Of a stretch of DNA of 64,000 nucleotides, positions 42,817 through 56,143 are shown one piece after another; position 1 is the first letter of the stretch, and every line of letters starts with the position of its first letter. The notes below the pieces were generated by a model. The model did no database searches and was not told the DNA's origin. It was given only the letters and a program-made list of their open reading frames with translations. The stretch is from Candidatus Tabaqchalia intestinavium (GTDB taxonomy: Bacteria > Bacillota > Clostridia > Oscillospirales > CAJFTT01): positions 1 through 64,000 of the forward strand of contig CAJFTT010000050.1 of NCBI GenBank assembly GCA_904420005.1, written 5' to 3'. The position numbers and the translations under genes are program-made.

Positions 42817-42857
42817 AACCACGCGACTATCGCGTGGTTTTCTTGATACAAAAAGCG
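42817..42857. repeat. AACCAC stem-loop element, copy 2
   Basis: AACCACGCG-ACTAT-CGCGTGGTT then TTCTTGATACAAAAAGCG. Confidence 0.65.
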
Positions 42858-42881
42858 CGCCCGGGAATAATCCCGGGCGCG
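42856..42881 (-). terminator. intrinsic terminator of the carbohydrate-ABC locus
   Basis: CGCGCCCGGGAATAATCCCGGGCGCG then CTTTTTGT on the minus strand. Confidence 0.9.
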
Positions 42882-42914: not shown

Positions 42915-43892
42915 TCAGCCGACGATACCGCTGCGCTCGATCCCCTGCGTAAACTGCCGCTGCAAGATGAAATAAACAATCATCACCGGCAGCACAACGA
43001 GGAAAGTCGCGGCCATAACCACCGCTTCGTTATAGATAAGCTGGTTTTGAATCTCCGTCTCCGTTTGCGCCTCGGAATTCAGAATGCTGAACAGCTCCGG
43101 CAGGCGCGCGATGACGACCATCTTGGTGCGCTCACGGATATACAGAACCGACTCATACGTATCCGTCCAGTGCCACACGATGGACAGCACGATGGACACC
43201 AGAAACGGCGCTTTGGACATCGGCACGATGACGCGCAGGAAGGTGGAAACCGGTCCGCAGCCGTCCACGCGCGCCGCTTCCTCCAGCTCTGAGGGGATGC
43301 CGGTATAGAACTGGCGGAAGATGAAGATGAACACGCCGCCCTTGAGCCCCATGCCGAAGAACGTCGGCAGCACAATGGGCAAATACGAAGTGAGCAGCCG
43401 CAGGTTGGCATACAGAATATAGTTCGGGATGGAAATAACCTGCGGGGGCACGATGATGGCCAGAACCAGCAGAACCAGCAGAATGCTTCTGCCCTTAAAG
43501 CGGTACCGCGCCAGTCCATAGCCGGCCAGGGAGGCGGAGAACACATGCCCCACCGTGGACAGCAGCGTGACGATCGCGGAGTTCTTCAGGCCCTGCCAAT
43601 ATTGCAGGCCGCGAATGGCCACCGTGTAGTTATCCTTCCAGATGGCCGTCGGGATCCAGCTGACCGTCGGGTCAGCCAGATCGCTCGGCGACTTGAACGA
43701 GGTGATGATCATATACAGGAACGGATAAACAAACACGAACGCAATACAGATAATCAGCAAATATTTCACGATGCCCAGCAAAAACCGAGCGATGATCTTC
43801 CGCAAAAACGCCGGGAGGTTCTTGGTGTCTTTCAGCTTCCTGCCGAAATTGGTGAAGCTGTACGAAACATTGTCCGCAAATTTCTTAAACAT
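42915..43892 (-). CDS. carbohydrate ABC transporter permease (MalG-type)
   Basis: TSFKSPSDLADPTVSWIPT; EELEEAARVDGCGPVSTFLRVIVPMSKAPF EAA-loop-type motif. Confidence 0.93.
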   Translation of the reverse strand: MFKKFADNVSYSFTNFGRKLKDTKNLPAFLRKIIARFLLGIVKYLLIICIAFVFVYPFLYMIITSFKSPSDLADPTVSWIPTAIWKDNYTVAIRGLQYWQGLKNSAIVTLLSTVGHVFSASLAGYGLARYRFKGRSILLVLLVLAIIVPPQVISIPNYILYANLRLLTSYLPIVLPTFFGMGLKGGVFIFIFRQFYTGIPSELEEAARVDGCGPVSTFLRVIVPMSKAPFLVSIVLSIVWHWTDTYESVLYIRERTKMVVIARLPELFSILNSEAQTETEIQNQLIYNEAVVMAATFLVVLPVMIVYFILQRQFTQGIERSGIVG

Positions 43893-43915
43893 TTCTTCAC
43901 TCTCCTTCCCGGCTC

Positions 43916-45334
43916 TCAGTTCTCGACGCCATTGTTGGTCTTACGTGTTGCAAAGAGCACGATACCAACCATCGCCAGCACAACCGCCATATAAATCCAG
44001 CTCATGGCCGCTGCGCCGCCATAGTCCGCGACACCGTTTTCGCCCGTACCTGTAACGCCGTTGGTCGTGTTGACGATCAAATTGATCAGCGGGTTGGTCA
44101 AGTCGGTCGCGGAATCCACGATCGTATAGATAATGGTCAGCACCGTCACTGGCGCCAAGGAAGGAATCGTGATTTTCCAGAACATCTCCCATTCTGTCGC
44201 GCCGTCCACACGGGCCGATTCGTAAACCGAGGTGGAGATGGACTGCAGGCCCGACAGGAAGATGAGGATCTGCACGCCCGACCGCCACAGGATCTGGGTG
44301 ATCTGGGAGAAAACAAGCTCAATCACCGTGGCAAATTGCGGTGGTATAAATGCCAGCAAATTCTCTGGTACGGTGATACCTCTGCTCATTTCGCTGCTCA
44401 TCATCTCGTAACCGGCCTGCGCCGCCGCCTGGTCCACTTCCATACCCAGCAGCTGCTGGAGAATATACCCTGTGCCAAGCAGCACCGGCAGGAAGAACAT
44501 CGTGCGGAAAAGGCCGCGGAACACAATCTTACCGTTGAGCAGCACCGCCAGAATCATGGAGATGATCACAACCGAAGGAACAAAGATGATCATCTGACCC
44601 AAGGCATTCATAAACGCGCTGGTGAATTCAGAATTGTTAAACAGCCCTGTATAATTGCGCAGCCCAACGAACTCCATCTCAAAGCCCATGATACGGGTAA
44701 TCCGGCTGAAGCTCAGCTGCAGAGAGGTAATGATCGGATAGGCAAAGAACACAAGCAGACCGATCAGCCAGGGCAGCATGAAGGCAACCGCTTCCAGCGT
44801 TTTTCTTGTCTGGCTCTTGATCTCGGCACGGCTGCGCTGCAGCGTAACCTTGCGTTTCTTCTTCCCCTTCTTTTTCTTACCGGAAGACTTTTTGCCGCTG
44901 GATGCGGTTCCGGCCTTTTTCGTGCCCGTCCCGGAGGACTTCTTCGTGCCGGTTGTGGACGAAGATTTCTTCGTACCGGTGGAGGAAGAAGTCTTTTTCG
45001 TGCCGGTGGAGGACTTTTTCGTCCCAGTGGAGGAAGTCTTCTTTGTGCCTGTAGAGGCGCTCTTTTTCTTCTCTCCGCCGGGGGCCTCCTTCTGCGCAGC
45101 ATCGGCATTCGCCTCCGCCGCAGCCGGCGCCGTTTCCGGCTCGCCGGCTGTTGCAGATGCCGGAGACGCCTGGGTCTGCGGCTGCTCGACGGCTTCCGCT
45201 GCGGGAGCCGCTTCCTCGGAAGGGGTGGATTCCGCCGCTTCGGGCGGAACAGGCTGTGTCATCGCGGGGATCTGTTCTTCTTGCTGCGCGGGCGCAGCGT
45301 TCTGCTCAGAATGTTCCAGTCTTTCCTCTGACAA
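43916..45334 (-). CDS. sugar ABC transporter permease (MalF-type) with a long low-complexity N-terminal extension
   Basis: Core FMLPWLIGLLVFFAYPIITSLQLSF, YESARVDGATEWEMFWKITIPSLAPV; first about 180 aa are Ala/Glu/Pro-rich then (S/T)TGTKK repeats. Confidence 0.92.
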   Translation of the reverse strand: MSEERLEHSEQNAAPAQQEEQIPAMTQPVPPEAAESTPSEEAAPAAEAVEQPQTQASPASATAGEPETAPAAAEANADAAQKEAPGGEKKKSASTGTKKTSSTGTKKSSTGTKKTSSSTGTKKSSSTTGTKKSSGTGTKKAGTASSGKKSSGKKKKGKKKRKVTLQRSRAEIKSQTRKTLEAVAFMLPWLIGLLVFFAYPIITSLQLSFSRITRIMGFEMEFVGLRNYTGLFNNSEFTSAFMNALGQMIIFVPSVVIISMILAVLLNGKIVFRGLFRTMFFLPVLLGTGYILQQLLGMEVDQAAAQAGYEMMSSEMSRGITVPENLLAFIPPQFATVIELVFSQITQILWRSGVQILIFLSGLQSISTSVYESARVDGATEWEMFWKITIPSLAPVTVLTIIYTIVDSATDLTNPLINLIVNTTNGVTGTGENGVADYGGAAAMSWIYMAVVLAMVGIVLFATRKTNNGVEN

Positions 45335-45353
45335 TCCAATCCACTCCTTTCCT

Positions 45354-47672
45354 TCAGACTACAACGTAATCCGTTGCGGGAATCGTAACATCGCCATAGA
45401 CATAATCGCTACTGGTGTAGTTGACATACACAACCTTGCCGTTGGCGTATTCAATCCGGTAGACTTCCTGACTGTTCAGCTTCTCGTGCCGCACCATTTC
45501 GGAATTCCACACGCAGCTCAGGCGCTCCTTCATGCGGTTGATCACTTCAACCGCTCTGGGACCCCATTGGCTGTACACGGAAGAATACAACCAGTTGGCG
45601 TCGGTATATTTGAGGTTCTCCGCGTTTTCTTCCGTCAGCATGAAGTAGGGCATATAACCATACTCGGCCCACTTCAGCTCGATCCAGTTGAGATCATGCG
45701 CAAGGTTGCCCGGATACGAGGTATACGGCAGGTAGCTATGCACGACCATCTGGTAGAACGGAATCGACTCATTGGAGATGTCGTATTGCGAATGTTCATA
45801 GGAAAGGTTCACAATACGGCTGGCGTTGGACATGGCGTAAAGGTTCGCTTCCGACCAATAGTTCATGCCCTCCGACCGGATCTCGCCCAGCTTCTGCTGA
45901 ATGAAATCATACGCCTGGGTTCTGGTATAGAAGCTGTGCTCGCTGTAATCATTATACAGCCACCAGCCAAGCCGCTCGATATTCAAGCCGATTCCCATCG
46001 ATTTTGCGTAATCCACAAAATCCGGCAGGTAATCGTTGAACATCGAATTGAGGTTGCGGACGTATTCGTTATATTTTCTCGAATACAGCGGCAGACCGGA
46101 AGAAGTATAGGCCGCATCGGTTCTGGCCGTATAGCCGCTCCGCTCACCGTTAAGCGTCACAGGATTGACGTTGAGCGTGAGCGTAATGCCATTCTGGTTG
46201 GCAAACTCCGCCAGCTCCTCCAGCCCGCTGTTTCCGCCCAGCTGCGAGGCCGCTTTTGCCGACGTAGGATTACGGTCATAGCCTTCCTTTTGCCAGCCGT
46301 ACAAGGCGGTTTGAATCCCCACGCCTGTCTGCTCCCGGATCTCGCCGAGAATCTGCTGCGCTTCCTCAAACGTCGTCTGCGCCATGAACTTGTCGCCCAG
46401 CGCGCGCTCCTCATAGATGCCCATGAACAGGTCGATGCCCGCCATCATGTTGTCATCCTGGATGTAATCCTTGAGCAGATCATTCTGAATCAGGTATTCC
46501 CGATAGGCCGCCGCCATACCGCTGTAATCCGCCTGGCCCTGCAGGAGGAATTTGTAGGTCATGGCCGCATCTTTCCTCTGAAGCTCGGCCTCAAACCGGG
46601 TCACATCCCGGTCGGCGTTGCCCACGCCCGTGCCGCCGATCTCCGACAGATCCACCGGGCGCCGATAGGTAAAGGTGGTATACAACCGGTTCAGTTCCAC
46701 GACGTAACCGCCGGGGACATAGTTGATGATCGCATCGGCAGAGCCGGAAGAGATAATCGCGAGCAGCGCATGGGAATCATCCTCGCGGATGCCGTAAACC
46801 GGCATGCTCGCCGGCGTGACGTTATCGTCGTCGTTGTCCAGGATACTGTCATAATCCATGCGCTCCCTGGATTCGCCGATCCACTGCATTTCGCCCGGAG
46901 TCTCGCCGTAGACCTTCCACATATATCTGGCTTCCTGCTCACGGACGTTTTCAACCGTGAAATAGGAAAGCGCGCCGCTGCCGTCAGGATAGAAGACGTA
47001 ACCGTCTTCCTTATTGGTCTCCACGCAGCCGAACATCGGCAGAACATCCGCGGAAACCAGCATGTAATTCCCCTGCTCAAAGATGCTGTCGCCGGGGATC
47101 TCGGCATGCAGCTCATCATCCTTCATATAAATCCGAAGGCTCAGCTGGATGTACTGCGCCTCGAACGCGAAGGTGACCTCGATGCCGCCTTCAATCTCCG
47201 TGACGGAGAATTTCGCGCCGTCGTGCGGATAAATCGTCGTTGCAATGCCTTGGTTGTGGTTTGTGTCAATCACATCGATGGTGATGACTGAACTGAGCTT
47301 TTTGCGCCACAGCTCCTCGACCCGTTCCAGCGGCTTCTGCTGCAGGTCAACGGAGGACGTCCACATATACCCGCTCGCCAGATCGCGCACAATGATGGAG
47401 CAATCCTTCGGATGATACAGCAGCTCATATTTGTCGCTCTTGTAGCGGGAGATATAGCCGTCGTAATCCAGCGGGGAACTCGCCGAATCGTTGACGTACG
47501 ATTCCTCGTAAGTCTGCATATTCGTCGTGTCCAGCGGCGTATACACAATCCCGTCGTCCGTTTCGTCGTCGGCGCCCGTGATTCTGCAGGAAACCGCCGT
47601 CGTCAGCAACATTGCCGCGGTCAGAAGCAGCGCCGCAGCGCGCTTCCATCTGTTCTTCGTCATCCTTTTCAC
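45354..47672 (-). CDS. DUF5696-like lipoprotein
   Basis: Lipobox-like TAVSC; 772 aa; EYELLYHPKDCSIIVRDLASGYMW-type N-terminal part; internal GYDRNPTSAKAASQLGGNSGLEELAEFANQNGITLTLNVNPV region reminiscent of TIM-barrel glycosidases. Confidence 0.7.
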   Translation of the reverse strand: MKRMTKNRWKRAAALLLTAAMLLTTAVSCRITGADDETDDGIVYTPLDTTNMQTYEESYVNDSASSPLDYDGYISRYKSDKYELLYHPKDCSIIVRDLASGYMWTSSVDLQQKPLERVEELWRKKLSSVITIDVIDTNHNQGIATTIYPHDGAKFSVTEIEGGIEVTFAFEAQYIQLSLRIYMKDDELHAEIPGDSIFEQGNYMLVSADVLPMFGCVETNKEDGYVFYPDGSGALSYFTVENVREQEARYMWKVYGETPGEMQWIGESRERMDYDSILDNDDDNVTPASMPVYGIREDDSHALLAIISSGSADAIINYVPGGYVVELNRLYTTFTYRRPVDLSEIGGTGVGNADRDVTRFEAELQRKDAAMTYKFLLQGQADYSGMAAAYREYLIQNDLLKDYIQDDNMMAGIDLFMGIYEERALGDKFMAQTTFEEAQQILGEIREQTGVGIQTALYGWQKEGYDRNPTSAKAASQLGGNSGLEELAEFANQNGITLTLNVNPVTLNGERSGYTARTDAAYTSSGLPLYSRKYNEYVRNLNSMFNDYLPDFVDYAKSMGIGLNIERLGWWLYNDYSEHSFYTRTQAYDFIQQKLGEIRSEGMNYWSEANLYAMSNASRIVNLSYEHSQYDISNESIPFYQMVVHSYLPYTSYPGNLAHDLNWIELKWAEYGYMPYFMLTEENAENLKYTDANWLYSSVYSQWGPRAVEVINRMKERLSCVWNSEMVRHEKLNSQEVYRIEYANGKVVYVNYTSSDYVYGDVTIPATDYVVV

Positions 47673-48308
47673 CTACTTTCCTAACAACCGGATTTCTGCG
47701 AAGACCGAACCAATCACGCCGAACATCTGCTGCACAATCGCATAAAGCAGGAACACAATGCACCACACGACTACCATTGCCAGCAGCGAGCAAAGCACGC
47801 CTTTGATAAACGGTCCGGTCTCATAGTCGTTGAGCACTTTGAAGCTTCCCAAAAACAGCAGGATCGTCCAGATCAGCAGCGCGGAAATCGCGCCGTAATA
47901 GAAGAACGCCTGGCCGTTTTCCATCAAGTACGAAAGCAGTGTGAGCGGCCCCAGCAGCGCCGTGGCCGGGATCAGGCTGTACGCCGTGGCAATGGTGAAT
48001 TCCTTGAGCTTCATTTCCCCGTTGAGGATGGAAGACATCAAATAGGCGATCAGCACCCAGGAAGCCACCGGAACAAGAATCGTCGTGATGTCCATCATGA
48101 AGTTCGCCTGCCGCACGTCTACCGTGGTGAACGGGAAATGCACCAGCAGTCGGGACAGGACATAGACGATCGTGAAAAGCACGAAAACCACAATGGCAAA
48201 CGGCCAACGCATCTGGTCTCTTTTCCGTTTGATCTGCCGGAAGGTGACGGCGGGATGGAAAATGATGCCGGCTATCAGCTGAAAATATTCTTTCTTCTCC
48301 ATTTTCAC
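47673..48308 (-). CDS. Yip1-like membrane protein
   Basis: HPAVTFRQIKRKRDQMRWPFAIVVFVLF and multiple TM segments. Confidence 0.75.
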   Translation of the reverse strand: MKMEKKEYFQLIAGIIFHPAVTFRQIKRKRDQMRWPFAIVVFVLFTIVYVLSRLLVHFPFTTVDVRQANFMMDITTILVPVASWVLIAYLMSSILNGEMKLKEFTIATAYSLIPATALLGPLTLLSYLMENGQAFFYYGAISALLIWTILLFLGSFKVLNDYETGPFIKGVLCSLLAMVVVWCIVFLLYAIVQQMFGVIGSVFAEIRLLGK

Positions 48309-48316
48309 TCGCCCCC

Positions 48317-50029
48317 TTACTTATACAAATCGTCAGATTTTCGCTTGAGCTTGATCAGTCCATACGCAATCAGGAAAATCAGAGCGAACAGAGACAAAAC
48401 AATCGGCGTAAAATAATAACGGAAAACATTGATTCTGAATTCTGCAAACGCCTTATCGTATCCGTCATAATCATAGCTGTACTGGAAGCTCTCCATTGCC
48501 TCAACGTTCTTGCCCTGGCCATACAGCGCCTCGCCGACGCCCATATGCGCATGCATATACGTTTCGTCCATCTTGAGCACTTCCAGCCACAGACCATACG
48601 CCTGCTCATAGAGGCCGTCAAAATACATTCTCGAAGCCTCATGCACCTTCTGAATGAAGTCCGTCGGCTCGAAAATCTGAACGCTGCCCTTGGAGGAGTC
48701 GGACACGAACAGTCGGCCCGTGCCATCCTCAACATCCAGCGCGGTGGGCAGCATGAACTGCCCCTGCCGGTTGCCCAGACCGCCGAAGAAGGTGATGATG
48801 GTTCCCATCTGGTTGGTCTGGACGATATAGCCCAAATTCTGGTCAATCGTGGTCACGATCCCATTGCTGTCAACCGCAATGTCGACATAGTCGACCGTGA
48901 CATACTCCTGATCGGATGTGCTGTATTCTTCCACTTCATCATAGTTGCCTTCCGGGAACAAGTCGCTGCCCACCATGTTGATCTTCATGATCCGTTTGGG
49001 ATCCGTGGTCGTGGAAGATTCGGTATTCACGGTGTAGATCATATTGCCGTCCACCGTCAGGTTGACTGCTGGAGGCGGCTGCTTGTTCTCCACCGCTTGG
49101 CGTTGCGCCGCCGAGCCGAAGATTCTCACCAGAATATCCGTCACACTCGACTGCACTCTCGTCGCACCGGTGTAGCCCAGGAATTCGCCATCCAGATTCA
49201 TGGTGAAGAGGCCCTGGTAGCTGCTCTTGTTGAGCACATAGATGGTGCCGGTGTTGGATACGCCGACTTTTTGCGGCATAAAGTTATAGTTGGCGCCCAG
49301 CTCTTCAATTTGCCGGATATCGTCCTGGGTGAAGATCGCCTTGACATTATAATCGGAATCATACACCAGCAGGCGACGGTTCTCCGTGTCACAAATATAA
49401 ATATCGCCTTCCGGGGAGATGCACACGCCTTCCGGCGCGTTGAGATACGTATAGATCACGCGCACGACATAGGGTTCAGAGCCGTCGGAACCGTCAGAAA
49501 TGACATAATCCATCTGCGTCCCTTCGACAATTCTGCCCGACTCATCGCGCGGAAGGTTCTCCGAACCGGGGATGTCCAGCACTTCGTTGTTTCCGCTGGA
49601 CCCGGTCTGCGTATTGGAGGTCGTCCCCTCGTTCTCCGCATCGGTTCCTTCTGTGGTTTCCGTCCCTTCCGTGGTACCCGTTCCAGACACGTCGGTATTG
49701 CTCGAGCTGGGCAGGCCGGCGCAGAACATGGCCAGCACCTTGCCGTCCGTGGTCGTTTTGAGGACACGGTTGTTGCCCCGGTCGACGATCAGCAGGTTGC
49801 CGTCGTTGTCAAACATAATGTCGCTCGGGCTGTCCAGAATGCCGATACCGCCCTCGAAGCGGTTGATGACGCCTGCCGGACGATAGCTCTCCGGCATAGC
49901 GACCACTTCGCCGTTGTCGTAGATGGAACTGGTGCGCAGCTGGATGGCCGACGCCGGCACCATCGACGAAAGCAGAAGCAGGGACATCGCAAGACCGATG
50001 GAGGAAATTCGAAGCAATATTTTTCTCAT
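48317..50029 (-). CDS. secreted, C-terminally anchored NHL/beta-propeller protein with TPR-like segment
   Basis: Signal peptide; LDSPSDIMFDNDGNLLIVDRGNNRVLK, LNAPEGVCISPEGDIYICDTENRRLLVYD; TPR-like segment; C-terminal TM YYFTPIVLSLFALIFLIAYGLIKLKRK. Confidence 0.8.
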   Translation of the reverse strand: MRKILLRISSIGLAMSLLLLSSMVPASAIQLRTSSIYDNGEVVAMPESYRPAGVINRFEGGIGILDSPSDIMFDNDGNLLIVDRGNNRVLKTTTDGKVLAMFCAGLPSSSNTDVSGTGTTEGTETTEGTDAENEGTTSNTQTGSSGNNEVLDIPGSENLPRDESGRIVEGTQMDYVISDGSDGSEPYVVRVIYTYLNAPEGVCISPEGDIYICDTENRRLLVYDSDYNVKAIFTQDDIRQIEELGANYNFMPQKVGVSNTGTIYVLNKSSYQGLFTMNLDGEFLGYTGATRVQSSVTDILVRIFGSAAQRQAVENKQPPPAVNLTVDGNMIYTVNTESSTTTDPKRIMKINMVGSDLFPEGNYDEVEEYSTSDQEYVTVDYVDIAVDSNGIVTTIDQNLGYIVQTNQMGTIITFFGGLGNRQGQFMLPTALDVEDGTGRLFVSDSSKGSVQIFEPTDFIQKVHEASRMYFDGLYEQAYGLWLEVLKMDETYMHAHMGVGEALYGQGKNVEAMESFQYSYDYDGYDKAFAEFRINVFRYYFTPIVLSLFALIFLIAYGLIKLKRKSDDLYK

Positions 50030-50046
50030 AATCGCATCCCCTCCCT

Positions 50047-50997
50047 TTAAGACTTAATGCCGGAATAGCCCATGGCATCCAAGACACGCGCCTGCATAAC
50101 CACATAAATGATGATGGTTGGCGCCGTTGTTAGCAAGCTTGCGGCCTGCATGGCGCCCTGACGGGACAGCGTACCAGTCTGGTTAATCAGCTGCAGCGCC
50201 AGCGGCAGCGTCTTCATGGCCTGATCCTGAATATACACCAGGGCGTTGAAATAGTCGTTCCAGTTGGCCACAAAGGCGAACACGATAACCGTGGACAGCG
50301 CCGGCTTGAGGCACGGCATGATAATTTTCCAGAAGATCGTCCATTCTCCCGCGCCGTCGAGATACGCCGCCTCGATGAAGTCCCCCGGGATCTGATCGCA
50401 GAACTGTTTGAGCAGGAAGAGATAATAGCTCGAAACGATTTTCGGGATAATCATAACCCAGTAGGTATCGTTCAGATGCAAGGCGTTCGTGATCAGATAG
50501 GACGGGATCGCCGTGGTCTGCGTGCCGAAGCTCAGCGCCATGACCAGGACGGCGAAGATGAAGTTCGCGCCCTTGAGGTTGAATTTCGCCAGTGCGTAGG
50601 CGCACATGGCGCAGATCACAACCGTCAGGAACACCGTCGCAACCGTGGTCAGAAGGCTGTTAAACACATACCGGGAAAACGGCACCGACGTGGAGGAGAT
50701 CGCCGCCGACAGGTTCTTGAAATTATCCAGCGTCGGGCTGGAGACGTAAAACCGCGGCGGATAAATCAGCAGCTCGTCAATCGGCTTGAACGCTGTCACG
50801 ACCATATAAACCAGCGGCAACATCATCAGCACGATCAGCGCGAGCATGAAAATGTACAAAAGGAAATGCGAAAGCTTGAACCACCGGCGGATATGCCGCA
50901 GGCGCCGGAAGAACCGGGTGACCGCAGAGGATGGAAGCGTGGCGGTCTGCTGTGTGAGCATGTATCGCGGAATCGCTTGTTGTTTCGCTCTTGCCAT
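50047..50997 (-). CDS. carbohydrate ABC transporter permease (MalG-type)
   Basis: VVTAFKPIDELLIYPPRFYVSSPTLDNFKNL; DFIEAAYLDGAGEWTIFWKIIMPCLKPAL. Confidence 0.94.
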   Translation of the reverse strand: MARAKQQAIPRYMLTQQTATLPSSAVTRFFRRLRHIRRWFKLSHFLLYIFMLALIVLMMLPLVYMVVTAFKPIDELLIYPPRFYVSSPTLDNFKNLSAAISSTSVPFSRYVFNSLLTTVATVFLTVVICAMCAYALAKFNLKGANFIFAVLVMALSFGTQTTAIPSYLITNALHLNDTYWVMIIPKIVSSYYLFLLKQFCDQIPGDFIEAAYLDGAGEWTIFWKIIMPCLKPALSTVIVFAFVANWNDYFNALVYIQDQAMKTLPLALQLINQTGTLSRQGAMQAASLLTTAPTIIIYVVMQARVLDAMGYSGIKS

Positions 50998-51013
50998 AAC
51001 TTCTCCTCCCCTC

Positions 51014-51937
51014 TTAATCCGTCGTGCGGAACACTCTCATGCAGATGCGTCCGAGCAAAATCGTCGTGATGGCCAGCACAATGGAAATTGCCGATGCATA
51101 GCCCATCTGGAACCGGGTGAACGCATAATCATACAAGTGTGTCACAATGGTGTGGGCCGCATATTCCGGCGACGGCATACCGGCAATGTTGACGGCGATA
51201 TCGAACACGCCGAACGAACCGACGACGGTGTTGACCGCGCCGAACAGCAGCTGCGGCTTCATCTGCGGCCAGGTGATGTACGCCATCTCCTGGAACTTGT
51301 TCTTCACGCCGTCGATGGACGCCGCTTCATACAAATCCTTCGGAATGTTCTGCAAACCAGCCAGGAAAACCAGGAACTGGTTGCCCATACTCATCATCAG
51401 AGAGACGAAAATAACAACCGGCATGATCGTGTCCGGGTTGGTCGTCCACAGGATCGGCTCGGTGATGATCCCCCACTTGAGCAGATAGTAGTTAAACAGA
51501 CCATAGCGGTCGCCAGCGAAGAAGTACAGCCAAATCTGGCTGAGCGCGATACCGCTGGCCAGCGTCGGCGTATAAAAGCCGAGGGTGAACGCCTTGCGGA
51601 ATTTCAGATTGTTGATCACCCAAGCCAGCACAAAGGCCAGCAGGAAGCTCGTCGGGCCGTAGATAATCGCATAAACCAGCGTATTCTGAACGGCAGTCAG
51701 GAACAGGTCGTCTTCCAGGATCAAGGTCTTGAAGTTTTCCAGGCCGACGAAGCTCCACGGCTGGATCATATTATAGTTCGTCAAGCTGTAAAATGCGCCT
51801 ACCAGAAGCGGAAGAATCGTAAACACAAAGAACAGAAGCAAGCCGGGAATTACGAACATGTAGCGGTTGATCGTCCGCAGCCGTCTTGTGCGTTTGCCGG
51901 CCTTTACCGCATCGGCATGAGAAAGCGCAGTCTGCAT
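51014..51937 (-). CDS. sugar ABC transporter permease (MalF-type)
   Basis: MFVIPGLLLFFVFTILPLLVGAFYSLTNYNMIQPWSFVGLENF; DLYEAASIDGVKNKFQEMAYITWPQMKPQL. Confidence 0.94.
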   Translation of the reverse strand: MQTALSHADAVKAGKRTRRLRTINRYMFVIPGLLLFFVFTILPLLVGAFYSLTNYNMIQPWSFVGLENFKTLILEDDLFLTAVQNTLVYAIIYGPTSFLLAFVLAWVINNLKFRKAFTLGFYTPTLASGIALSQIWLYFFAGDRYGLFNYYLLKWGIITEPILWTTNPDTIMPVVIFVSLMMSMGNQFLVFLAGLQNIPKDLYEAASIDGVKNKFQEMAYITWPQMKPQLLFGAVNTVVGSFGVFDIAVNIAGMPSPEYAAHTIVTHLYDYAFTRFQMGYASAISIVLAITTILLGRICMRVFRTTD

Positions 51938-51954
51938 TTCTCTTCCCTCCTAAC

Positions 51955-54900
51955 TCATGAAATCGTATAGGCATCGGCCGGAACTTCTCTGTTATATTCC
52001 TCACGCTTGTTCCAGATCTCCTGGTTGATATCCTTCACAGCCATGAGCAGGGAGTCGCGGGCCCGGTACGTACGTGTAACTGCCACTCGGTTGAATGCAT
52101 TGCTGACGTGGCGGGCGGTGAAATAGCTTCCCAAGCAGTTGGGCGTCGTCACCGCAAGCCGCTGGGCCTCCGCAATGATCTCACCATGATTGGAATCCCA
52201 GGTCATACGCTCAAACGCTTCGATATTGGAGGGCAGCCAGCGCGCGTCGCGGCCAACAACCGCTTCCACTTCATTGCCAAAGTAAACCTGCGTATCGGTT
52301 CTCGTCCACCACTCGAGCATCTTCCAGGAAGAATCCACTTTCTGGCTGTTGCCCATGATGAAGCAATAGGTGCCCGCGGTACCCGTTGTGGTTCTGTCGA
52401 TATATTCGTTTCCGTTCTCGTCGGTGCGAACCGTGCCGGGGATGGGCGCGATGGTCCATTTACCCTGCATTTCCGGCGCCGCGATCAAAAACTGCATATA
52501 TTCCGTGAAGGTACCCAGGCCGATGGGCATGTCGCCCGAGCGGAACTGGTTGAAGAAGTTGGCCGTCACAGGGATTCCCTGCTCGACATACATATCCGTC
52601 CACTGCACAAACGCGTTATATGCCGCGTCCGTATCCAAGCCGGTACGCATGAAGTCATATTCCACGCCATCCGTGCCCACGTCGGAGCGATAGTAGCTGC
52701 CGCCGTTTTGATACAGGAACACGTCAAAACCGCCCGCATACCAGAACTGCATGTCGTTTTCATACAGCGCGGGGATCACCACGCCGCACAGCTCATCCCA
52801 GGTTTCCGGCGCTTCTATGCCAATCCGATCGAAAATATCCGTGCGGTAGAACATCACCAGGAAGTTGGTCGATTCAGGAATGGCGTAAATATGATCTTCA
52901 AAAATAACCGGGGTAAAGAGCGATTCATGGAACCGGCTCTTGACTTCCTCGAATCCTTCTAGCTCATCCAGCGGCGTCATAGCGTCACGAATGGAAAATT
53001 CCACCGCATCCGTCGGAGCCGCGCCCATAACCACGTCCGGCGCGTTGCCGGAAATGTACGACAGCATCAGCACGCTGGTGCCGTTCGCGCTTAGCTGACC
53101 GTTCGGCAGGACGTTGACATTCACGCCGATACCGGTCTCCGGCGTGAAATCACGCTTGACCTGCTCGCGGAACACTTCGCACCATTCATTACCACGGCTG
53201 ATCCACACGTCGATGCTCTCCTGCGTACCGCTGATCACACCGATGCTGTTATAATCCTTGAAGAAGGACAGCCAGAACTCCATGAAGAACTTGTAGATCC
53301 GATCAAAGAAGCTGGCTTCCTTGATGTCGAAGTTCTCATTCTGCGCCGCGAAATAGATCGTATCGATCTCCAGCGACTGCGCTTCCATTTCCGTCACCCA
53401 GGTGGTGATGTCGGTCGCCGCTTTGGTGATCTGGTCCAGCTCTGCCGGAATCTGGAACGTGTCGCTGTGCAGCTGCTCAAACAGATCCGCGATGGTGTTG
53501 AAATTGCTCACCATGCCGGGACGTCTGTTGCTGATCGCCATGAGCTGCTCGTTGATCTGCAGCATGGAGGTGCGCAGCTCAGACAGGATTTCCTGGAGAT
53601 TGGGGATCCAGCGCTGCAGCTGATAGTCATAGTTGGGGTCGGGGTCGGTACCCGTACGGATGCGGATGTCGCTGTACAGATCCATGATCCGGTCAACGTT
53701 CTCCTCCAGCTGACGGATGATATCCGCCGTGTCGCCCATCACAACCGTCAGCGTCAGCGTATCGCCCGGCTCCAGATAGAACAGCCAGGGATCGTCGCCG
53801 CCCAGCGTGACGTTTTCATAGGAGCTGGAATAGTCAAACTTGATGGCCGCGCATTCGGCAAACGGCACCTCGCCGTTGATCTCCAGGCGGCGGAACGAAG
53901 GCAGGCCGTCGCCCCAGTTCTGCAGAACATGGAAGCCGATCTTATACAGGCCCGGCTGCGTGACGTTGACCGTCCACGTGGCCGCCTCGCCGCCCGCGCT
54001 CCAGTTCTCCGCGCCCATGACGTTGAGCACCTTGCGCTCGAAAGAGTAGGGCTCCGTGGAAGGATCGGTCCCGTACTCACGGCGCACGGAGGTGCTGTTA
54101 CGGAACGTGATCTCCTCCGCTTCCAGGCGAACCGAACCCACGCCGTTCTGGTAACCCTGCTCGGCATAATACTGCTTGATCTGCTCGTAGGTCATCAGCT
54201 CTTCCGGGGGCACGAAAGAGATCTCCTTGATGGCCAGCATCTGGCTTCTATAATTGAGGGTGAGCGTGTGCTCGCCTTCGGTGAGATAGAACTGCAGCGG
54301 CAGCGCCTCGCGCAGGGAAGGATCGTAAACCAGCTGCGTCTGCCAACCGAAAACCTCCGAGAGAGAGGGACGGATATCGTCGCCCTCGAGGCCCTCGCCG
54401 ACGTCGGTCTGCGTCACGTCGCCGTTCTCGACATATTTGCGGTACAGGGGGTTGGCACGCGCTTCCTCAAACGGCAGCGCACCGTCGATGAGGATGTCGC
54501 GCTTGACCTCGTCATAAGAACCCTCCAGCGCGTCGTAAACGAACTGCAGATTATACAGGCCCGCCTGCTCCACGTAGAATGTCCAGGTGTAAGAAGTATT
54601 CTGATTGCCGACGGTGCTGCCGGGATTGGTGTAATCCCAGATGAACACTTCTTCATCGTTGTGGTTGCCGATCGTCACGACCGAACCGTCGTTGCCGACC
54701 GCCGTCGTGGGATCGATCACAATCGGCTCCGTCCCGAGCGGATACCCATTCTGCTCGTACTGATTTTTCACGTCGGCGTAAGACGCTTCTCCGTCCGTGT
54801 CTGTGTCCGTCTCCTCGTCCTGTCCCTCCTGCGTCTCCGACTGCGTCGCGTCGCTCTCGGGAAGCGTCTCCTCCGCGCCCGCAGGCTCCGCGAACACCGC

Positions 54901-54975
54901 GACACTGGTGGACAGAAGCATCATGAGCGTAAGACACAGAGCCGTGAACCGCTTTGCAAAACTTGCGCCTGTCAT
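51955..54975 (-). CDS. very large extracellular solute-binding protein with N-terminal beta-rich (carbohydrate-binding-like) domains
   Basis: Signal peptide LMMLLSTSVAVFAEPAGA; CBM-like VRLEAEEITFRNSTSVRREY...GLYKIGFHVLQNWGDG; C-terminal SBP fold (APDVVMGAAPTDAVEFSIRDAMTPLDEL, PESTNFLVMFYRTDIFDRIGIEAPETWDEL). Confidence 0.88.
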   Translation of the reverse strand: MTGASFAKRFTALCLTLMMLLSTSVAVFAEPAGAEETLPESDATQSETQEGQDEETDTDTDGEASYADVKNQYEQNGYPLGTEPIVIDPTTAVGNDGSVVTIGNHNDEEVFIWDYTNPGSTVGNQNTSYTWTFYVEQAGLYNLQFVYDALEGSYDEVKRDILIDGALPFEEARANPLYRKYVENGDVTQTDVGEGLEGDDIRPSLSEVFGWQTQLVYDPSLREALPLQFYLTEGEHTLTLNYRSQMLAIKEISFVPPEELMTYEQIKQYYAEQGYQNGVGSVRLEAEEITFRNSTSVRREYGTDPSTEPYSFERKVLNVMGAENWSAGGEAATWTVNVTQPGLYKIGFHVLQNWGDGLPSFRRLEINGEVPFAECAAIKFDYSSSYENVTLGGDDPWLFYLEPGDTLTLTVVMGDTADIIRQLEENVDRIMDLYSDIRIRTGTDPDPNYDYQLQRWIPNLQEILSELRTSMLQINEQLMAISNRRPGMVSNFNTIADLFEQLHSDTFQIPAELDQITKAATDITTWVTEMEAQSLEIDTIYFAAQNENFDIKEASFFDRIYKFFMEFWLSFFKDYNSIGVISGTQESIDVWISRGNEWCEVFREQVKRDFTPETGIGVNVNVLPNGQLSANGTSVLMLSYISGNAPDVVMGAAPTDAVEFSIRDAMTPLDELEGFEEVKSRFHESLFTPVIFEDHIYAIPESTNFLVMFYRTDIFDRIGIEAPETWDELCGVVIPALYENDMQFWYAGGFDVFLYQNGGSYYRSDVGTDGVEYDFMRTGLDTDAAYNAFVQWTDMYVEQGIPVTANFFNQFRSGDMPIGLGTFTEYMQFLIAAPEMQGKWTIAPIPGTVRTDENGNEYIDRTTTGTAGTYCFIMGNSQKVDSSWKMLEWWTRTDTQVYFGNEVEAVVGRDARWLPSNIEAFERMTWDSNHGEIIAEAQRLAVTTPNCLGSYFTARHVSNAFNRVAVTRTYRARDSLLMAVKDINQEIWNKREEYNREVPADAYTIS

Positions 54976-55157: not shown

Positions 55158-55186
55158 ATTCTATCGTATTTCCCGCATTTTGTCAA
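55158..55186 (-). promoter_or_regulatory. sigma-A-type promoter of the solute-binding protein locus
   Basis: Minus strand TTGACA - 17 bp - TAGAAT. Confidence 0.75.
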
Positions 55187-55465: not shown

Positions 55466-56143
55466 TCAGCGGCGCGGCCAGGCCGGCTCGCGCACCAGGC
55501 GCGCCAGCGCCGGGAAAAGGGCGCGGTACCCCGTTTCGGTGATGTGCATCCCTTCGATGGTGTATTCCGCCTTCAGCCGCCCCTGCGCGTCGCGCAGCGG
55601 GGCGTTGAGGTCGACGAAGCGCGCGCCGCGCCGGGCCGCGAGCTTCTCCGCCGCGCGGTTGGCCTCGTCGATCCGGCCGTTGTTGCGCAGCCGCAGCAGC
55701 CCGCGCATGAAGTCGTCCGGCGCGGCGTCCTCGTTGACGGGATAATACGCCATCATATAAATCTCTACCTCCGGCAGCCTGTCCTGCACCGCCGCGAGGA
55801 TTTTTTCATATTGCTCCATCAGCCCTTCGACCGTCACGTCGAGGCTGGTCAGGTCGTTGGTGCCGATATTGATGAACAGCCGCGCCGGCGCAAGATCGAA
55901 AATACAGACGTCGAGCGCCTGCAGCAGCTCCCCCGTCACGAAGCCGCCGACGCCGCGGTTATAGATCGTGCGCTCGACGCCCATCTCCCGCACGAATTCC
56001 TCCGTCGGGAACATCTCCATCAGCGACGAGCCGGCGAACACGATCTGCCCCCGCCGGCAGGCGCGGTTGTCCGCCTCGTACTGCGCCAGGCGGGCCTGCT
56101 TATCCGGGCTCATCTGCGCGAAACGCTCCTGCGTTGTCTGCAT
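55466..56143 (-). CDS. SGNH/GDSL-type esterase/lipase family protein
   Basis: IVFAGSSLMEMFP; YNRGVGGFVTGELL; LFINIGTNDLTSLD; IEGMHITETGY. Confidence 0.92.
   Translation of the reverse strand: MQTTQERFAQMSPDKQARLAQYEADNRACRRGQIVFAGSSLMEMFPTEEFVREMGVERTIYNRGVGGFVTGELLQALDVCIFDLAPARLFINIGTNDLTSLDVTVEGLMEQYEKILAAVQDRLPEVEIYMMAYYPVNEDAAPDDFMRGLLRLRNNGRIDEANRAAEKLAARRGARFVDLNAPLRDAQGRLKAEYTIEGMHITETGYRALFPALARLVREPAWPRR

Follow-up and report, generated by a model that had tools for sequence, protein, structure and literature searches.

The 64,000-nucleotide stretch of Candidatus Tabaqchalia intestinavium analysed here (contig CAJFTT010000050.1; hereafter the window) raises the question of what a locus with two complete permease pairs, one giant solute-binding protein (SBP) and no ATPase of its own can do. 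Eight open reading frames (ORFs) occupy the minus strand from 54975 to 42915, at the positions given by an initial annotation made from the letters alone, with gaps of 0-24 bp and in the order giant SBP, F1, G1, NHL/TPR, Yip1, DUF5696, F2, G2. The explanation that we prefer, with a probability of roughly 0.6, is that they encode a conserved dual CUT1-type ATP-binding cassette (ABC) importer for glycan fragments, with two receptors, an NHL-Yip1 scaffold and one shared ATPase. That the eight-gene system would import carbohydrate is well supported, the direction of transport and the probable substrate class (glycan fragments) both being read from the protein families present. The locus comprises the following features, in the order of transcription:

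55158..55186, minus strand: promoter-like site, TTGACA-17-TAGAAT, 11/12 consensus matches
51955..54975, minus strand: giant SBP, 1006 aa, with a signal peptide, two domains like carbohydrate-binding modules (CBM35/CBM6-like) and an SBP fold; no lipobox
51014..51937, minus strand: F1, MalF/UgpA-type permease with EAA loop (BPD_transp_1)
50047..50997, minus strand: G1, MalG/UgpE-type permease with EAA loop (BPD_transp_1)
48317..50029, minus strand: NHL beta-propeller plus TPR protein (NHL repeats), with a signal sequence and a C-terminal transmembrane segment
47673..48308, minus strand: Yip1-domain membrane protein (Yip1), five hydrophobic segments
45354..47672, minus strand: DUF5696 lipoprotein, lipobox AVSC, with a fold like glycoside hydrolase family 129 (GH129); DUF5696, 484 bits
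43916..45334, minus strand: F2, MalF/UgpA-type permease with EAA loop and an N-terminal extension (BPD_transp_1)
42915..43892, minus strand: G2, MalG/UgpE-type permease with EAA loop (BPD_transp_1)
42856..42881, minus strand: terminator-like hairpin with a T run, 11 bp stem containing 10 GC pairs

The eight same-strand genes that the initial annotation had placed between a promoter and a strong terminator were all recovered, together with the promoter-like site and the GC-rich hairpin, and an AGGAGG ribosome-binding site precedes the ATG of the giant SBP at 54975. Neither a change of strand nor a strong terminator inside the locus, either of which would split it into independent transcripts, was found, and a search for Rfam elements between 41.0 and 57.5 kb returned none. 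Pfam searches of the eight proteins returned four BPD_transp_1 domains, NHL repeats, Yip1 and a full-length DUF5696 (484 bits), and in agreement with the initial annotation none of the eight genes encodes an ATPase or a member of an annotated glycosidase family.

Conservation of the eight-gene unit

Among 119 related loci from Clostridia, Paenibacillus/Cohnella and Anaerolineae, the exact full gene order was kept in 98 and a single strand in all 119 (median intergenic gaps -14 to +14 bp), an arrangement far beyond chance; most departures arise where a contig ends or where the Yip1 portion went unrecognised. In a panel of 59 relatives, DUF5696 was present in 33 and full-length in 32. The N-terminal domain of the giant SBP and the NHL protein, each found in 31 genomes, occurred in 31/32 genomes with full-length DUF5696 and in 0/27 of the others (Fisher p 6e-16), the sole mismatch being a genome (G001) whose locus lies on an 8.3-kb contig beginning just before DUF5696. 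Inspection of 40 loci from DUF5696-positive relatives showed that the order SBP-F1-G1-NHL-(Yip1)-DUF5696-F2-G2 recurs, apart from contig-end cuts, one locus with G2 unrecognised and one with short DUF5696 proteins alone. The co-occurrence on which the original proposal depended is strict in the 59-genome panel, and the order is kept across loci. A search of named genomes with five query sequences yielded at least 558 confirmed relatives, the best 80 of which (top-scoring loci, biased towards near relatives of the query) belong to Paenibacillus, Cohnella, Lachnospiraceae, Oscillospiraceae, Limnochordales and Anaerolineae and have the same order wherever the contig permits; many of the related loci come from metagenome-assembled genomes. 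In a phylum-wide scan 12/150 genomes exceeded the cut-off, several with seven matches among those listed.

Identity between the proteins of different loci has fallen to about 25-35% while the unit was kept, and a genome may have as many as six or seven copies of the core, adjoining differing glycan enzymes. In other genomes the neighbouring genes belong to GH26, GH10, GH9, GH43, GH2, GH3, GH35, GH95, GH32, a GH106-like group, rhamnogalacturonan lyase (RGL11) and PF10091, and AraC and LacI regulators lie near some related loci. As these neighbours span so many glycan-enzyme families, the core is constant and the enzymes change; in the window locus itself no glycan enzyme or regulator was found. 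Being widespread, kept as a unit despite divergence and present in multiple copies beside varied glycan enzymes, the system is likely to be a major, as yet unnamed, means by which polysaccharide is taken up in gut and soil. Two side observations concern individual genomes. In a 1.8-Mb genome (G011; L037, L038, L064, L065, L066 and contig C6) there are six DUF5696 matches and one OB_MalK-type ATPase, five of the matches being accompanied by a giant SBP and an NHL protein and one lying on a contig cut beside DUF5696. In the window, a GDSL-like hydrolase gene (55466-56143, minus strand) is the immediate upstream neighbour of the locus promoter and falls outside the conserved core.

The giant SBP and the ATPase

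The predicted model of the giant SBP (pLDDT 86.8) consists of two beta-sandwich domains, the second bearing a four-helix insertion (416-531), followed by an amphipathic helix (556-569) and a sugar-SBP fold (577-993). Both beta-sandwich domains gave CBM35/CBM6-like matches in profile comparisons, and the CBM-like assignment comes from these profiles, the Foldseek list being dominated by matches to SBP domains and maltose-binding protein fusions. The C-terminal half is an SBP by PDB profile matches, PF01547 (76 bits) and fold, so that the very large SBP of the initial annotation proved to be a 1006-aa protein whose C-terminal ~430 residues are a sugar SBP. It is the only PF01547 protein in the assembly, in which no PF13416 protein was found. 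A lipobox-like motif was seen in 10/104 giant SBPs and is absent from that of the window. Because the protein is so rarely lipidated, which is unusual in Gram-positives, another component must presumably hold it at the surface.

In the assembly (2.13 Mb, 82% complete) one ATPase exceeded the cut-off of the UgpC model (PRK11650), at 479 bits. Its gene is unlinked, being on another contig (L088:5943-7085, minus strand; G000:C44) with no permease nearby; by eye, an alpha-amylase/neopullulanase-like gene lies close to it. The protein carries D77, R104, E110 and K154, in the same numbering as MsmX, where mutation shows that these residues are important for the multitask role (PMC7658222). No other CUT1-like permeases were found in the assembly, the remaining permeases adjoining their own ATPases or being Opp-like (families judged by position and length). 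The putative sharing of one MsmX-like ATPase by both permease pairs, which the initial annotation had suggested, would account for these data and is well supported; likewise, a giant SBP that is the assembly's one PF01547 protein, among no other CUT1-like permeases, favours the surface glycan-capture system envisaged there. The ratio is one ATPase to two permease pairs in this 82%-complete assembly and one OB_MalK-type ATPase to six loci in G011. Across the panel, OB_MalK was found in 30/32 DUF5696-positive relatives versus 18/27 negative ones (p 0.016). Six Paenibacillus loci (L129, L134, L137, L143, L146 and L161) have a UgpC-type ATPase within the operon, 16-28 bp upstream of the SBP; in these enzymes position 154 is altered (Q, R or E) and some also differ at 110, which would fit a dedicated rather than a shared motor. 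Two further candidates for a CUT1 ATPase were rejected and not counted, the L040 protein as LolD-like and the ABC protein downstream of L140 as MsbA-like; similar ABC proteins in L144 and L150 were left out of the count by clustering only.

Possible second receptor, proposed half-modules and rival explanations

The AlphaFold model of the DUF5696 protein (pLDDT 87.9, pTM 0.89) has ZgGH129 (5opq) as its best Foldseek match (E 2.8e-31, TM-score 0.61/0.70), followed by NagBb and GH101, and the family profile also retrieves GH129 proteins from the PDB by sequence (E 1e-12). A published study describes catalytic residues in a GH129 enzyme, along with Ca2+ and a tryptophan platform. The first rival to be weighed is that DUF5696 works outside the cell as a catalytically active GH129-like glycosidase, trimming glycans captured at the surface, with both permeases importing the products and the giant SBP as sole receptor. 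We consider this unlikely, though it is the strongest of the rivals, the GH129 fold, the lipoprotein signal and a glutamate conserved at 93% (E670) all being in its favour. In NagBb we take D435 and E478 to be the catalytic residues and D330 to be a substrate-binding residue. NagBb D435, the nucleophile position, aligns with R567 of the window protein in the register of the hidden Markov model (HMM), and position 567 is acidic in 44/120 members. Acids occupy both catalytic positions in 11/120 (strict) to 21/120 members (loosest register) and all three functional positions in 9/120 (loosest count), yet the position of the gene in the operon is invariant. Since the acids are mostly lost while gene position does not vary, the transporter-linked DUF5696 looks mostly retired as an enzyme and may instead be a second glycan receptor for F2-G2; if so, it would to our knowledge be the first glycosidase fold in the role of an ABC receptor. 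In one genome (G041), two stand-alone DUF5696 proteins without signal sequences (L070:7009-8739 and L070:12428-14179, both minus strand), with no transporter core adjoining, retain the GH129-like catalytic motifs YIDEL/YVDEL and SEG, and are likely true cytosolic glycosidases inside a DUF.

All four permeases have a near-invariant EAA loop, the element that contacts the ATPase (E 94-100%, G 95-100% and P 97-100% in 106-120 sequences). Both pairs described by the initial annotation are real; its statement that they flank three proteins understates the arrangement, since in every complete locus DUF5696 occupies the same place before F2-G2 as the SBP does before F1-G1. From this gene order arose the idea, afterwards examined with evolutionary distances, of two half-modules, SBP-F1-G1 and DUF5696-F2-G2, joined by an NHL-Yip1 scaffold. 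Partial distance correlations over 77 loci were 0.53 (F1-G1), 0.23 (F2-G2), 0.20 (DUF-F2), 0.16 (SBP-F1) and 0.22 (SBP-G1) within the proposed halves and -0.08 (F1-G2), -0.09 (DUF-G1) and -0.03 (SBP-F2) across them, and NHL distances correlated with both DUF5696 and F2/G2. The half-module hypothesis thereby gains mild support. A second rival holds that the locus encodes two ordinary CUT1 importers for different substrates, with a common transcript and ATPase and with NHL and Yip1 as accessory or regulatory proteins. In keeping with it, F1, F2, G1 and G2 form four separate deep clades (in a tree with few outgroups, from which no order of ancient splits is claimed) and the F1-G1 and F2-G2 correlations exceed those across pairs; however, full-length DUF5696, the giant-SBP N-terminal domain and NHL were never found apart in 59 genomes, and pair 2 lacks a classical SBP in this genome, which makes two independent importers improbable. 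The N-terminus of F2 is a predicted cytosolic, Lys/Ser/Thr-rich low-complexity extension of ~170 aa with TGTKKSS repeats. F2 is also long in G001, L043 and L044 (445-462 aa), and the F2 ORFs of Cohnella L124/L125 measure 623 and 805 aa (ORF lengths).

The membrane-anchored NHL/TPR protein and Yip1 would be the natural candidate for a scaffold holding the giant SBP, and in 50/111 loci the two are on one polypeptide. We know of no importer that uses such proteins as transport components, which, together with the AraC or LacI regulators near some loci, is what speaks for one permease pair and its receptor acting not as an importer but as a glycan sensor coupled to transport. With EAA loops kept in both pairs and no kinase or regulator in the conserved core or the window locus, we regard such a sensor as very improbable, and the signalling function once entertained for the locus found no positive evidence. 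An export or polymer-secretion machine, the other alternative raised at the outset, is scarcely credible, since the two permease pairs and large surface apparatus are all that favour it, against type I importer permeases with EAA loops, a sugar SBP, a UgpC/MsmX-type ATPase and catabolic enzymes as neighbours.

Several observations count against the dual importer with two receptors. About 38 other loci have beside the core a small lipoprotein SBP that could serve F2-G2; its gene, which in most cases encodes a lipobox, immediately precedes that of the giant SBP (L102, L104, L108, L133, L138-L142 and about 30 others) and is absent from the window genome. In the loosest register the window DUF5696 has an acid close to each of the three GH129 functional positions (D466, E566, which adjoins R567, and E608), and could for this reason be an active hydrolase. 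Two DUF5696-positive relatives have no OB_MalK match, and, at 82% completeness, the ATPase and the SBP can each be called the only one of its kind just provisionally. The distance correlations behind the half-modules are weak and overlapping, with SBP-G2 (0.19) an exception, and linkage could account for part of them.

If the dual-importer reading is correct, the secreted giant SBP would hold a poly- or oligosaccharide through its CBM-like domains, and its C-terminal SBP domain would then hand an oligosaccharide to F1-G1. The DUF5696 surface lipoprotein, in the receptor position of F2-G2, would act as a second receptor for glycans, or in a minority of members would be a trimming enzyme. The NHL-propeller/TPR protein and its Yip1 partner would keep the mostly non-lipidated receptor and both permeases together, the single unlinked UgpC/MsmX-type multitask ATPase would power both permeases, and partner enzymes that vary between genomes would set the substrate. 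A bolder version, which we offer only tentatively and think more apt to fail than to hold, is a new ABC-importer architecture in which two CUT1 permeases are joined in one supercomplex by the NHL-TPR-Yip1 scaffold, fed by a giant CBM-SBP and a retired GH129-fold receptor and driven by one motor, as a general SusC/SusD counterpart in Bacillota and Chloroflexota.

Comparison with known systems

CUT1 importers with a multitask ATPase, such as AraNPQ-MsmX of B. subtilis (PMC7658222, PMC5730181), have in common with this locus MalF/MalG-type permeases with EAA loops, a sugar SBP and a single unlinked UgpC/MsmX-type ATPase with D77, R104, E110 and K154. Unlike a standard CUT1 importer, the locus combines two pairs of permeases, instead of one, in a single operon of invariant layout, a giant, rarely lipidated CBM-SBP fusion where the Gram-positive SBP is usually a lipoprotein, and additional DUF5696, NHL/TPR and Yip1 proteins; with two pairs, both conserved, it is best regarded as a variant of the CUT1 importer. 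Gram-positive polysaccharide utilization loci (gpPULs), described in Roseburia/E. rectale, are defined by a degrading enzyme, a transporter and a regulator (PMC5320581). Several relatives of our locus likewise have a glycan transporter near degrading enzymes and AraC/LacI regulators, whereas here the core alone is conserved and the enzymes are interchangeable; the window locus, which encodes neither an enzyme nor a regulator, falls outside the definition.

DUF5696 has the whole multi-domain fold of GH129 (ZgGH129, 5opq; NagBb, 5wzn) and is also related in this way to GH101, but it shares 12-13% identity with GH129, mostly lacks conserved catalytic acids and always precedes a permease pair in transporter loci. 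The best sequence match of the C-terminal domain of the giant SBP is Lin1841 (5ysb), the beta-1,2-glucooligosaccharide SBP of Listeria innocua (family profile E 5e-33), whereas the giant SBP has about 570 more N-terminal residues (the CBM-like pair and helical insertion), and the substrate is not deducible from the match. Beta-1,2-glucan was considered as the substrate and set aside, the case for it being the Lin1841 match alone and the neighbouring enzymes belonging to many families.

The open-access literature searched contained no paper on DUF5696, no description of the eight-gene set and no exact characterised homologue system, the finding of which would have refuted the initial annotation. 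What we describe appears to be a strictly conserved and, as far as searched, undescribed glycan-import system. New are the GH129 fold of DUF5696 with catalytic loss in most members, the CBM-CBM-helical-SBP fusion and the NHL-Yip1 fusions, and for three families that had no function assigned in this setting a common role can now be put to the test. In the SusC/SusD systems of Bacteroidetes a conserved core is likewise combined with interchangeable glycan enzymes; the likeness is one of analogy only, as the present system shares no proteins with them, would be ABC-driven and is found in Bacillota and Chloroflexota.

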